Assembly: GCA_021773795.1 (NCBI GenBank) | Contig: JAJFJT010000014.1 | Location: forward strand, 1 to 64,000 | Direction of reading: 5' to 3' | Length of the DNA stretch: 64,000 nt | Origin: Gammaproteobacteria bacterium | GTDB taxonomy: Bacteria > Pseudomonadota > Gammaproteobacteria > HK1 | Shown here: piece by piece, positions 11,714 through 16,635 of the stretch | How positions within the stretch are numbered: position 1 is the stretch's first letter | Layout of the letters: every line of letters begins with the position of its first letter | Program-made: the position numbers and the translations under genes | The notes under the pieces: model-generated | Told to the model about the DNA's origin: nothing | Seen by the model: only the letters and a program-made list of their open reading frames with translations | The model's database searches: none

Positions 11714-12976
11714 ATGGCGAGAAACGCGTTTTACGCACAGTCCGGTGGGGTTACGGCGGTTATTAATGCATCAGCCTGCGGGGTTATTGAGACCGCACGC
11801 AAACACCCGGATATCATCAAAAATGTCTTTGCTGGCCGCAACGGCATCATCGGCGCACTGACGGAAGATCTTATCGATACCAGCAAAGAATCCGATGCTG
11901 ATATCGCCGCCCTGCGTCACACCCCTGCGGGCGCCTTCGGCTCCTGCCGCTACAAGCTCAAGGGGCTGGAAGACAGCCGCGCCGAGTACGAACGCCTGAT
12001 CGAAGTCTTCAAGGCCCATGACATCGGCTACCTGTTCTATAACGGTGGCGGCGATTCCCAGGACACCTCTCACAAGGTTTCTCAAATCGGCGAGAAGCTC
12101 GGTTACCCCATCACCTGCGTGGGCGTACCGAAAACCGTCGATAATGACCTCCCCGTTACTGACTGCTGCCCGGGCTTTGGCTCGGTAGCCAAGTACGTTG
12201 CCGTGTCCATCCGCGAGGCCTCCTTCGACGTCGCCTCCATGGCCAAAACCTCAACCAAGATCTTTGTCATGGAGGTGATGGGACGCCACGCTGGCTGGAT
12301 CGCCGCTGCTGGTGGATTGGCCGCCGAGAAAGAAGGCGATGCCCCGCACATCATCCTGTTCCCCGAGGTGGTTTTCGATCAGGAGAAATTCCTTGCCCGG
12401 GTGGATGAGACGGTCAAGGAATTCGGTTACTGCGCCATCGTGGTTTCCGAGGGCGCCCAGTATGCCGACGGTACCTTCCTCGCCGAGGCCGGTACTCGTG
12501 ATTCCTTTGGACACGCCCAGCTCGGTGGTGTCGCACCAGTGGTGGCGAAGATGGTCAAGGATGCTCTGGGCTATAAGTACCATTGGGCGGTCGCAGATTA
12601 TCTGCAGCGTTCCGCACGCCATATTGCCTCGGCAACCGATGTCGAGCAGGCCTATGCGCTGGGCAAAGCGGCTGTGGAACTGGCCGTTGCCGGCAAAAAT
12701 GCGGTTATGCCCACCATCGTCCGCACCGGTGAAAATCCCTACACTTGGGAGACCGGCAGCGCCAATCTAGCCGACATCGCCAACGTTGAAAAGATGATGC
12801 CGCCGGAGTTCATCAGCGAAGATGGTTATGGCATCACCGAGGCCTGTCGGGATTACCTGAGCCCCCTCATCCAGGGCGAGGACTATCCGCCTTTCAAGGA
12901 TGGCTTGCCGCAGTATGTGGAGCTGAAGAAGGTGGCGGTACCCAAGAAGCTCAACAAAGAGTTCATCGTGACCTAG
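11714..12976 (+). CDS. pfp: Pyrophosphate-dependent 6-phosphofructokinase
   Basis: The 420-residue enzyme interconverts fructose 6-phosphate and fructose 1,6-bisphosphate with PPi as phosphoryl donor. Donor choice is readable: GGGDS (111-115) has Asp where ATP enzymes have the second Gly of GGDGS, and PKTVDND (139-145) has Lys where ATP enzymes have Gly; both are hallmarks of the PPi type. MGRHAGW near 194 is also conserved. A GGAG ribosome site precedes the ATG. The gene is monocistronic with a strong terminator. Such enzymes are reversible and common in autotrophic and methanotrophic proteobacteria. Confidence 0.93.
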   Translation: MARNAFYAQSGGVTAVINASACGVIETARKHPDIIKNVFAGRNGIIGALTEDLIDTSKESDADIAALRHTPAGAFGSCRYKLKGLEDSRAEYERLIEVFKAHDIGYLFYNGGGDSQDTSHKVSQIGEKLGYPITCVGVPKTVDNDLPVTDCCPGFGSVAKYVAVSIREASFDVASMAKTSTKIFVMEVMGRHAGWIAAAGGLAAEKEGDAPHIILFPEVVFDQEKFLARVDETVKEFGYCAIVVSEGAQYADGTFLAEAGTRDSFGHAQLGGVAPVVAKMVKDALGYKYHWAVADYLQRSARHIASATDVEQAYALGKAAVELAVAGKNAVMPTIVRTGENPYTWETGSANLADIANVEKMMPPEFISEDGYGITEACRDYLSPLIQGEDYPPFKDGLPQYVELKKVAVPKKLNKEFIVT

Positions 12977-13000: not shown

Positions 13001-13033
13001 ACCCCGCTATCTAGATAGCGGGGCTTTTTTTTG
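13001..13033. terminator. Bidirectional intrinsic terminator between pfp and rpoH
   Basis: The self-complementary CCCCGCTATCTAGATAGC continues to GGGG (13002-13023), is flanked by an A-run on the left (12995-13001) and is followed by eight or more T residues on the right. This gives a perfect stem with U-tracts on both strands, so it can stop pfp from the left and rpoH from the right. Confidence 0.92.
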
Positions 13034-13911: not shown

Positions 13912-13942
13912 ACATTTACCTCAACTGACAGCTATGGGAGCG

Positions 13943-13972
13943 AGTTTAGCACTCGCTACATATGAGTGCCAA
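13943..13972 (-). promoter_or_regulatory. Candidate sigma-70 promoter with CIRCE (HrcA) operator upstream of rpoH
   Basis: Read toward rpoH, the sequence is TTGGCACTC, nine bases, GAGTGCTAA (13972-13946). This is 17 of 18 identities to the CIRCE consensus TTAGCACTC-N9-GAGTGCTAA bound by the heat-shock repressor HrcA. The same bases offer a -35 TTGGCA (13972-13967) and a -10 TAAACT (13948-13943) at 18-bp spacing, so a bound repressor would cover the promoter. The predicted transcript start is about 25 bp before the rpoH ATG. The operator match is seen directly; regulation is inferred, and hrcA is not in the window. Confidence 0.78.
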
Positions 13973-13999: not shown

Positions 14000-14968
14000 C
14001 TATCCGACTTCAATGCCCCGCAAATGCCTGCGTACCGCCAACCAGGAGCCCGCCAACCCCAGCAAGGCACCCATCAGACAGAGCACCAGACTCGCCCGTA
14101 GGCCGAGGGAGGCCAGCAGGAAATTTGCCTGATAGAGGGATGCCAGCTCTGCCAGCGGCCCACGCACCAACCACAGGCCACCCTCTACCAGCAGCCAGGC
14201 CATTAGCGCACCGAGCAGGCCGAAACAGAAACCGGTATAGAGAAAGGGGCGACGTATAAAGGCGTCGGTAGCGCCCACCAGCTGGATAATCTCGATTTCC
14301 GCGCGGCGATTCTCAATGCCGAGCCGAATGGTGTTGCCAACGATGAGCAACACACCGAGCGCCAGCAACGCCGCCAGCACCACTACCCCCCGTTTCAGAG
14401 TATGGATGATGGCGTGCAAACGCTGCAGCCATTCCAAATCAAACTGTGCCAGCTCCACCGCAGGCAGCCGACCCAGCTCCGCTACCAGTCCCTTGATGGC
14501 CTCCGGCTGTGCATAACGCAGCGTCGGCTCCACCAGCACCAGTGCGGGCAGGGGGTTTTCCTGCTCGAAGGCATTAAGGGCCTCAGCGAAACCGGAAAGC
14601 TGGCGATATTCCTCCAGTGCCTCGGCACGCGTAATGAGCTGAACGTGACGTAATTCCGATCGTTTATGCAGGCTTAGGGCAAAACGACTCGCCGCCTCAT
14701 CATCGATCTGGTCTTTGAGAAATAGCGAAATCTCTACCTTGCCATCCCAGTTCTGCCCCACCGCCTGGACGTTATCGAGGAATACATAAAGGCCGGCGGG
14801 CAGGGCCAGGGCGATACCGATGACCCCGGCGGTCATGGCTGTGCCCAAGGGGCTGCGGGTTAATTCTCCCAGCGCCGAAAACAAGGTTTGCAGGTGGCGT
14901 AGTAACCAGGCGCGTAACTGGAAGCGCGGGCCACGCTCGAAATGGGGCGTGGTGGCCTTAGCCCGCAT
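14000..14968 (-). CDS. ftsX: Cell division protein FtsX (ABC transporter-like permease)
   Basis: The 322-residue inner-membrane protein pairs with FtsE and activates septal amidases through its periplasmic loop. The first membrane helix (TAMTAGVIGIALALPAGLYV) is followed by an extracellular loop of about 100 residues (VEISLFLKDQ onward), then three helices in the FtsX permease domain (LAALLALGVLLIVGNTIRL; FGLLGALMAWLLVEGGLWL; LVLCLMGALLGLAGSWLAV). It lies 50 bp after ftsE. Behind it is the rpoH promoter. Confidence 0.95.
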   Translation of the reverse strand: MRAKATTPHFERGPRFQLRAWLLRHLQTLFSALGELTRSPLGTAMTAGVIGIALALPAGLYVFLDNVQAVGQNWDGKVEISLFLKDQIDDEAASRFALSLHKRSELRHVQLITRAEALEEYRQLSGFAEALNAFEQENPLPALVLVEPTLRYAQPEAIKGLVAELGRLPAVELAQFDLEWLQRLHAIIHTLKRGVVVLAALLALGVLLIVGNTIRLGIENRRAEIEIIQLVGATDAFIRRPFLYTGFCFGLLGALMAWLLVEGGLWLVRGPLAELASLYQANFLLASLGLRASLVLCLMGALLGLAGSWLAVRRHLRGIEVG

Positions 14969-15018: not shown

Positions 15019-15675
15019 CTAATCATCGACCAGGCAACCCTTGCTGAGTACCAGAGTGCGGGTGTTCATCCGCTGGATCAGCTCGATATCGTGGGTGGCG
15101 ATGAGCACCGTCACACCGAAGTTGCTGAAGCTACCGAATAACCCCATGATCTCCCGCGACAGTTCCGGGTCGAGATTTCCAGTGGGCTCGTCGGCCAGCA
15201 AAATAGGTGGCTTGTTGACCACCGCACGGGCGATACCCACACGCTGCTGCTCACCACCCGAGAGGGTAAGCGGATGGAGCCGCTCCTTGCCCAGCAATCC
15301 CACCTTGTCCAGAGCGGCCCGTACCCGCCGGGCGATTTCCTGATGGCGGGCCCCGGCGATCACCAGTGGCAGGGCGACGTTATCGAAAACGGTACGCTCC
15401 GGCAGCAGGCGGTGATCCTGGAAAACCAGACCAATATTGCGGCGGAAATACGGGATCTTGCGGTGCGCCAGTCGATTCAGGTTCTGACCACCGATGAGCA
15501 CCTGGCCCCGACTGGCACGCTCCACCAGAGCCACCAGACGCAACAGGGTGGTCTTGCCGGCACCGGAATGGCCCGTGAGAAAGGCCATCTCACCCGCCGC
15601 CAACCGAAAACTGACGTTGCGCAGGGCCTCGTGACCACTCTGGTAGCGCTTGCTGACCTGATCGAAATGAATCAC
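15019..15675 (-). CDS. ftsE: Cell division ATP-binding protein FtsE
   Basis: The 218-residue ABC ATPase shows Walker A GHSGAGKTTLLRL (about 35-47), signature LSGGEQQRVGIARA (about 139-152), Walker B ILLADEPTGNLD and the switch His in IATHDIELI. Together with FtsX it links the Z-ring to cell-wall hydrolysis at the septum. The start codon appears to be GTG (15675), the only start that retains MIHFDQVSKRY, the usual FtsE beginning. It follows ftsY by 21 bp. Confidence 0.95.
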   Translation of the reverse strand: MIHFDQVSKRYQSGHEALRNVSFRLAAGEMAFLTGHSGAGKTTLLRLVALVERASRGQVLIGGQNLNRLAHRKIPYFRRNIGLVFQDHRLLPERTVFDNVALPLVIAGARHQEIARRVRAALDKVGLLGKERLHPLTLSGGEQQRVGIARAVVNKPPILLADEPTGNLDPELSREIMGLFGSFSNFGVTVLIATHDIELIQRMNTRTLVLSKGCLVDD

Positions 15676-15696: not shown

Positions 15697-16635
15697 TCAG
15701 TGCGCCAGTAAGGCATCAATAAATTCCTCGGCATCAAAGGGCCGTAAATCCTGCGGCTGCTCACCTACGCCGATGAAACGAATGGGCAGGCCCAACTTGT
15801 CAGCAATGGATAACACGATGCCTCCCTTGGCGGTGCCATCAAGCTTGGTCAGGGTAATACCACTGATCCCTACGGCGGCATGAAATTCGCGCGCCTGCGC
15901 CAGGGCATTCTGGCCAGTTCCCGCATCCAGCACCAGCATGGTCTCGTGGGGTGCCTCAGGGTCCAGCTTGCCCATCACCCGGCGGATTTTCTTGAGTTCT
16001 TCCATGAGGTTGGACTGGGTATGGAGACGACCCGCAGTATCCGCCAGCAGCACATCATAGTGTCGCGCTGTGGCAGATTGCAGGGCGTCATAAACCACCG
16101 AGGCAGAGTCGGCACCGGTGCCCTGAGCGACCACCGGAACTTGGTGGCGCTCACCCCACACCTGCAGTTGTTCCACCGCAGCAGCCCTGAAGGTATCCCC
16201 GGCAGCCAGCATGGGGCGCAGATTATCGTTCTGAAAACGCCGTGCGAGCTTGGCGATGGTGGTGGTTTTACCGGCACCGTTCACCCCCACCATGAGGATC
16301 ACAAAAGGCTTTTCCCGCACTGGAATCAGCAACGGCTGACTGACCGGTTCGAGAATCTTCAGCATACCGGCGCGCAGTGCCGCGAACACGTCTTCGGCCT
16401 CGCGCAAACGGCCACCGCCGGTTTGTTTTAACTCAGCGATGAGGCGTTCGGTAGCCTCTACCCCAACGTCTGCCGACAGCAGCAGGGTCTCTACCTCCTC
16501 CAGGGTCAATGCATCGAGACCGCGCTGGCCGGGAAAGAGCTCGCTGATGCCACGCACCAGAGCGCCACCGGTGCGTTGCAAGGCCTGGCGCATGCGCCCG
16601 AACAATGGCCGTTTTTCAGTCTTTTTCGCGCTCAC
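15697..16635 (-). CDS. ftsY: Signal recognition particle receptor FtsY
   Basis: The 312-residue SRP GTPase docks ribosome-SRP complexes to the membrane. The N-domain helices ([20 protein letters not shown]) lead into the G-domain with [18 protein letters not shown] (about 117-134), [11 protein letters not shown] and [13 protein letters not shown]. It lacks the long acidic A-domain of the E. coli protein, as in many relatives. It starts with GTG at 16635, preceded by a good AGGGG ribosome site 5 nt away. It heads the ftsYEX run, divergent from the M16 peptidase genes. Confidence 0.96.

Follow-up and report, generated by a model that had tools for sequence, protein, structure and literature searches.

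Known systems of heat-shock control

Two bacterial strategies of heat-shock control, one based on a repressor sensing free GroEL and the other on an alternative sigma factor, are usually presented as operating side by side or in place of each other. In other bacteria, it is established that free GroEL keeps the repressor HrcA active; the classical targets of HrcA, which carry the CIRCE operator, are groESL and hrcA-grpE-dnaK. Sigma-32, the product of rpoH, is usually controlled chiefly by translation and stability, and rpoH control in E. coli involves several promoters, an mRNA thermosensor and chaperone-dependent turnover. A connection between HrcA and rpoH has been predicted for Geobacter sulfurreducens, where a full CIRCE stands at position -51 relative to the start of rpoH and further CIRCE sites occur at hrcA-grpE-dnaK-dnaJ and groESL (Rodionov et al. 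2004, PMC545781). This prediction concerns a single genome of a Deltaproteobacterium, and neither a fusion of the operator with the promoter nor a class-wide survey was reported (PMC545781).

The locus described here lies in a 64,000-nucleotide stretch of gammaproteobacterial DNA, called the window below. As in G. sulfurreducens, a CIRCE precedes rpoH and others are found at other heat-shock genes. The locus shares with the classical system the operator and the repressor family, both present in this genome; here, however, the predicted target is a sigma factor and the operator contains the -35 and -10 elements. Compared with E. coli K-12, the rpoH gene is orthologous and the order ftsY-ftsE-ftsX-rpoH (minus strand in the window) is identical, but E. 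coli has no hrcA (used as control genome in the hrcA profile search, it gave no match).

A predicted HrcA operator within the rpoH promoter

The features of the locus are collected in Table 1. The TIGR02392 score of the rpoH product exceeds the cut-off of 323.1 bits, so a misassigned sigma factor was rejected. The protein also contains the RpoH box QRKLFFNLR, which is invariant in an alignment with 13 relatives. Downstream, a strong intrinsic terminator (13002-13031; stem CCCCGCTATC/GATAGCGGGG, then a T run) sits between rpoH and a convergent phosphofructokinase-like gene (11714-12976).

Table 1. Positions of the genes and regulatory elements of the rpoH locus in the window.
Feature	Position	Strand	Basis
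rpoH, heat-shock sigma factor, 283 aa	13060..13911	-	TIGR02392, 386.8 bits
rpoH Shine-Dalgarno GAGGT	13918..13922	-	sequence
Extended -10, TGC-TAAACT	13943..13951	-	TG + TAA in right CIRCE arm, ACT just outside
Predicted HrcA site, CIRCE operator TTGGCACTC-N9-GAGTGCTAA	13946..13972	-	17/18 matches; position kept in relatives
Candidate -35 hexamer TTGGCA, within left CIRCE arm	13967..13972	-	promoter match; TTAGCA/TTGGCA in 72/81 class sites
ftsX-like gene, upstream of rpoH, same direction	14000..14968	-	ORF; possible read-through into rpoH
ftsE-like ATPase gene	15019..15675	-	ORF translation, gene order
ftsY-like gene	15697..16635	-	ORF translation, gene order

Read toward rpoH (13972 to 13946), the operator is TTGGCACTC-ATATGTAGC-GAGTGCTAA, which matches 17 of the 18 positions of the consensus used for scoring, TTAGCACTC-N9-GAGTGCTAA. 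The palindrome is located 34 bp 5' of rpoH, in the 88-nt gap that separates the ftsX stop (14000) from the rpoH ATG (13911). Nothing else in the window matches with three mismatches or fewer, 0.02 matches being expected from dinucleotide shuffles. The whole genome (2.56 Mb) contains three such matches, and none for a reversed control pattern. A chance palindrome was rejected on the basis of these two controls, and the CIRCE proposed at rpoH in the original prediction is confirmed. The range given there, 13943-13972, takes in the palindrome together with the three -10 bases that lie outside it.

The palindrome overlaps a predicted promoter, TTGGCA-N18-TAAACT, as expected of an HrcA operator. 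The two hexamers (13972-13967 and 13948-13943) match 9 of 12 positions, and the -10 is preceded by TG. From the promoter position, transcription would start near 13936, leaving a leader of approximately 25 nt. Both hexamers had been named in the original prediction; they are real matches, and comparative data back the -10. Indeed, among the 81 rpoH sites of the class set described below, the TG is found in all, the base 3 nt outside the CIRCE is T in 72 and the base 2 nt outside is A in 61, with a flat composition farther out. The right arm and the outside bases together form TGC-TAAnnT, an extended -10, with TTAGCA or TTGGCA 18 bp upstream. Bases external to the CIRCE are not constrained by HrcA, and the conservation of the T therefore supports the -10 register. 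For the -35, conservation of TTAGCA/TTGGCA (72/81) is inseparable from that of the operator itself.

The same T distinguishes the CIRCE sites within the family, being present at 13/13 rpoH sites and 6/6 hrcA-ward sites, vs 0/17 at groESL. This argues that the operator is promoter DNA at rpoH and hrcA and lies behind the promoter at groESL. In family groESL regions, a sigma-32-like CTTGAC...CCCTAT/CCCATAT is conserved and the CIRCE directly follows its -10, unlike the rpoH operator, which includes both hexamers.

hrcA and the other CIRCE sites of the genome

The repressor required by the original prediction is present: a profile search detected one hrcA (PF01628, 5.5e-61; contig C7:137269-137922), followed by grpE and dnaK. 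A CIRCE was also found before groESL, where one would be expected (contig C15:79059-79085, about 91 bp 5' of groES). The third CIRCE is also intergenic, with hrcA on one side and the divergent nadK on the other. All three predicted sites of the genome are thus at or near expected heat-shock genes, plus rpoH. A genome-wide scan for the sigma-32 pattern returned 276 and 288 matches vs 212 and 224 in controls, the pattern being too loose.

The distance between hrcA and its CIRCE is about 100 bp in the two other species of the genus and about 490 bp in the genome of the window. The intervening stretch of about 390 bp (locus L002, approximately 1068-1455, on C7), absent from those two species, ends in inverted repeats (GGAGCCTGTCGG / CCGACAGGCTCC) and looks like a small mobile element that moved hrcA away from its operator. 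The same CIRCE (L002, 1501-1527) is also about 83 bp before nadK, and HrcA might therefore influence NAD kinase (nadK-recN).

Conservation and co-occurrence with hrcA

The family was sampled with 17 genomes from 8 genera, 15 of which have this rpoH. The CIRCE is conserved in the genus, and it is in place before this rpoH in 13/15 family genomes, representing 6/8 genera, and matches at 14 to 17 of the 18 positions. It is missing in G009 and G010; one copy in the latter retains the left arm and a -10 (TACAAT) next to a decayed right arm.

Several members of the family have a second, divergent rpoH, and none of these genes is preceded by a CIRCE. Most of those inspected (L036, L039-L043) display a sigma-32-like CTTGAA...CyCCATnT about 90-160 bp before the gene, as in L042 (CTTGAA-N14-CCCCATCT). 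The second sigma gene may thus be transcribed by sigma-32, which suggests a two-tier sigma cascade with an HrcA-controlled rpoH1 and a sigma-32-controlled rpoH2.

Two wider sets were analyzed. Among 66 named genomes tested for hrcA, a CIRCE before rpoH (at least 14/18 matches) was detected in 30/34 genomes with hrcA vs 2/32 without. Carriers include Woeseiaceae, Methylocaldum, Dyella, Alcanivorax, Pseudoalteromonas luteoviolacea, Halieaceae and Candidatus Thiodiazotropha; Pseudomonas, Vibrio, Photorhabdus and Halomonas are among the non-carriers. In Alcanivorax and Methylocaldum, which have hrcA, the site matches at 18/18 positions. In the class set, each GTDB family was represented by essentially a single genome with a completeness of at least 90%, a choice meant to avoid similarity-search bias. 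The 350 bases before every rpoH were read, with at least 15/18 matches defining a site. In this set, 76/82 genomes with hrcA carry the CIRCE vs 5/30 without. Scores leave a clean gap between 12 and 15, no non-site sequence exceeding 12. Fisher's exact value for the class set is 1e-14, a guide only, which overstates independence because the 82 and 30 genomes share ancestry. Gammaproteobacteria with hrcA thus normally have a CIRCE before rpoH, and those that lost the repressor gene, such as the relatives of E. coli, mostly do not. Neither of the two conditions named as refuting the original prediction, a genome devoid of hrcA or a palindrome not conserved in related species, applies. The link between HrcA and sigma-32 put forward there is therefore supported, but not as something special: it is common in hrcA-bearing members of the class, and since a CIRCE before rpoH was predicted in G. 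sulfurreducens in 2004, it is not new in kind.

The class set also holds counterexamples, namely six hrcA-bearing genomes without the rpoH CIRCE and five (G150, G032, G110, G143 and G091) that have it with no hrcA detected. The latter may reflect assembly gaps, a diverged repressor or recent loss of hrcA.

The inner arm bases CTC / GAG, which make no promoter contact, are conserved in genomes with hrcA and lost in most without. The extended -10 alone is retained in 6/25 hrcA-less genomes that have no CIRCE, 0.26 being expected from shuffled bases. In one of these six, G093, the left arm is still discernible in full and the right arm lacks a single base. This is the pattern expected of operator decay under continued selection on the promoter.

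Two further variants were observed. At Pseudomonas rpoH loci (L055, L075 and others), a sequence similar to GCAGTGCTAGACTGC occurs close to the rpoH start and is reminiscent of a right CIRCE arm in decay, together with a -10; hrcA was not found in the Pseudomonas genomes tested. Before rpoH of a Lysobacteraceae bacterium (L123), Luteimonas (L083) and Xanthomonas pisi (L113), the core reads GCAGTC instead of GCACTC, and two of the three show the mirrored change, GACTGC, in the other arm. This points to a change of HrcA specificity in these bacteria.

Proposed regulation and alternative explanations

The site, its promoter register, the presence of hrcA, the conservation and the co-occurrence with hrcA were established by computation. 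They make it highly probable, in our judgment, that the palindrome is an HrcA operator doubling as the housekeeping-sigma promoter of rpoH, with HrcA repressing, heat relieving this repression, and sigma-32 lying partly downstream of HrcA. The left CIRCE arm would provide the -35 and the right arm the extended -10 (TGC-TAA), completed by three outside bases. In unstressed cells, GroEL-activated HrcA would cover both hexamers and exclude housekeeping RNA polymerase. Under heat or misfolding stress, GroEL would become occupied and HrcA be released, and rpoH would be transcribed with groESL, probably also with hrcA-grpE-dnaK. Sigma-32 would then add to the output of sigma-32-like promoters, including that of groESL. 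This would create a feed-forward arrangement, groESL being repressed by HrcA both directly and via rpoH. Binding and repression by HrcA at rpoH, release on heating and the size of the effect are what we infer.

The effect could be small. As sigma-32 is mostly set by translation and stability, HrcA may matter little for its level, and read-through from ftsEX could supply rpoH mRNA independently of the CIRCE promoter. It is thus possible, though rather unlikely, that HrcA binds but only trims slightly an rpoH mRNA coming mostly from ftsYEX read-through or another promoter, with sigma-32 set, as in E. coli, by translation and turnover. The gene order ftsY-ftsE-ftsX-rpoH, identical in E. coli, is compatible with this, and no terminator was found in the 88-nt gap between ftsX and rpoH. 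On the other hand, most hrcA-bearing families have kept the rpoH site along with its -10, which calls for a selectable effect. RNA folding also bears on this point: the 5' mRNA of the window rpoH (first 220 nt) folds no better than shuffles (z 0.17 vs -2.6 for E. coli), and thus gives no sign of the E. coli thermosensor. This argument is weak, since the median z of genomes with and without hrcA (-0.34 vs -0.68) did not differ significantly (p 0.075).

Both hexamers lie inside the palindrome, and some hrcA-less genomes retain the -10 half. The palindrome could in principle be kept solely as a promoter (extended -10 plus -35), HrcA being inactive on rpoH. We consider this very improbable, because a promoter has no need of inverted symmetry and because the non-contact CTC / GAG bases are kept together with hrcA and lost in most genomes without it. 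Equally improbable is a role of the inverted repeat at the RNA level, as a leader hairpin of rpoH (for stability, thermosensing or attenuation). A stem could form in a longer read-through transcript, but transcription is predicted to start downstream of the repeat, which would leave it out of the main transcript, and conservation affects the bases of the DNA operator, just as it does at groESL sites.

Returning to the operator-promoter reading, HrcA over rpoH could be the ancestral, GroEL-sensing heat-shock design of Gammaproteobacteria, with E. coli-type control, the textbook version, derived and spread with losses of hrcA, and the extended -10 left as an operator fossil. This scenario may as well be right as wrong.

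Novelty and meaning

Full-text searches of open papers returned no report of a CIRCE before rpoH in Gammaproteobacteria. An earlier description for this class may exist, most likely in the survey by Permina and Gelfand (2003). The class-wide rule and the fusion of operator and promoter did not appear in the papers searched either and are possibly unreported.

Across an entire class, most families with hrcA use a predicted repressor operator as the promoter of a sigma factor gene. The order of events in the evolution of the heat-shock response thereby becomes testable, and E. coli may be a poor guide to rpoH transcription in many gammaproteobacteria.
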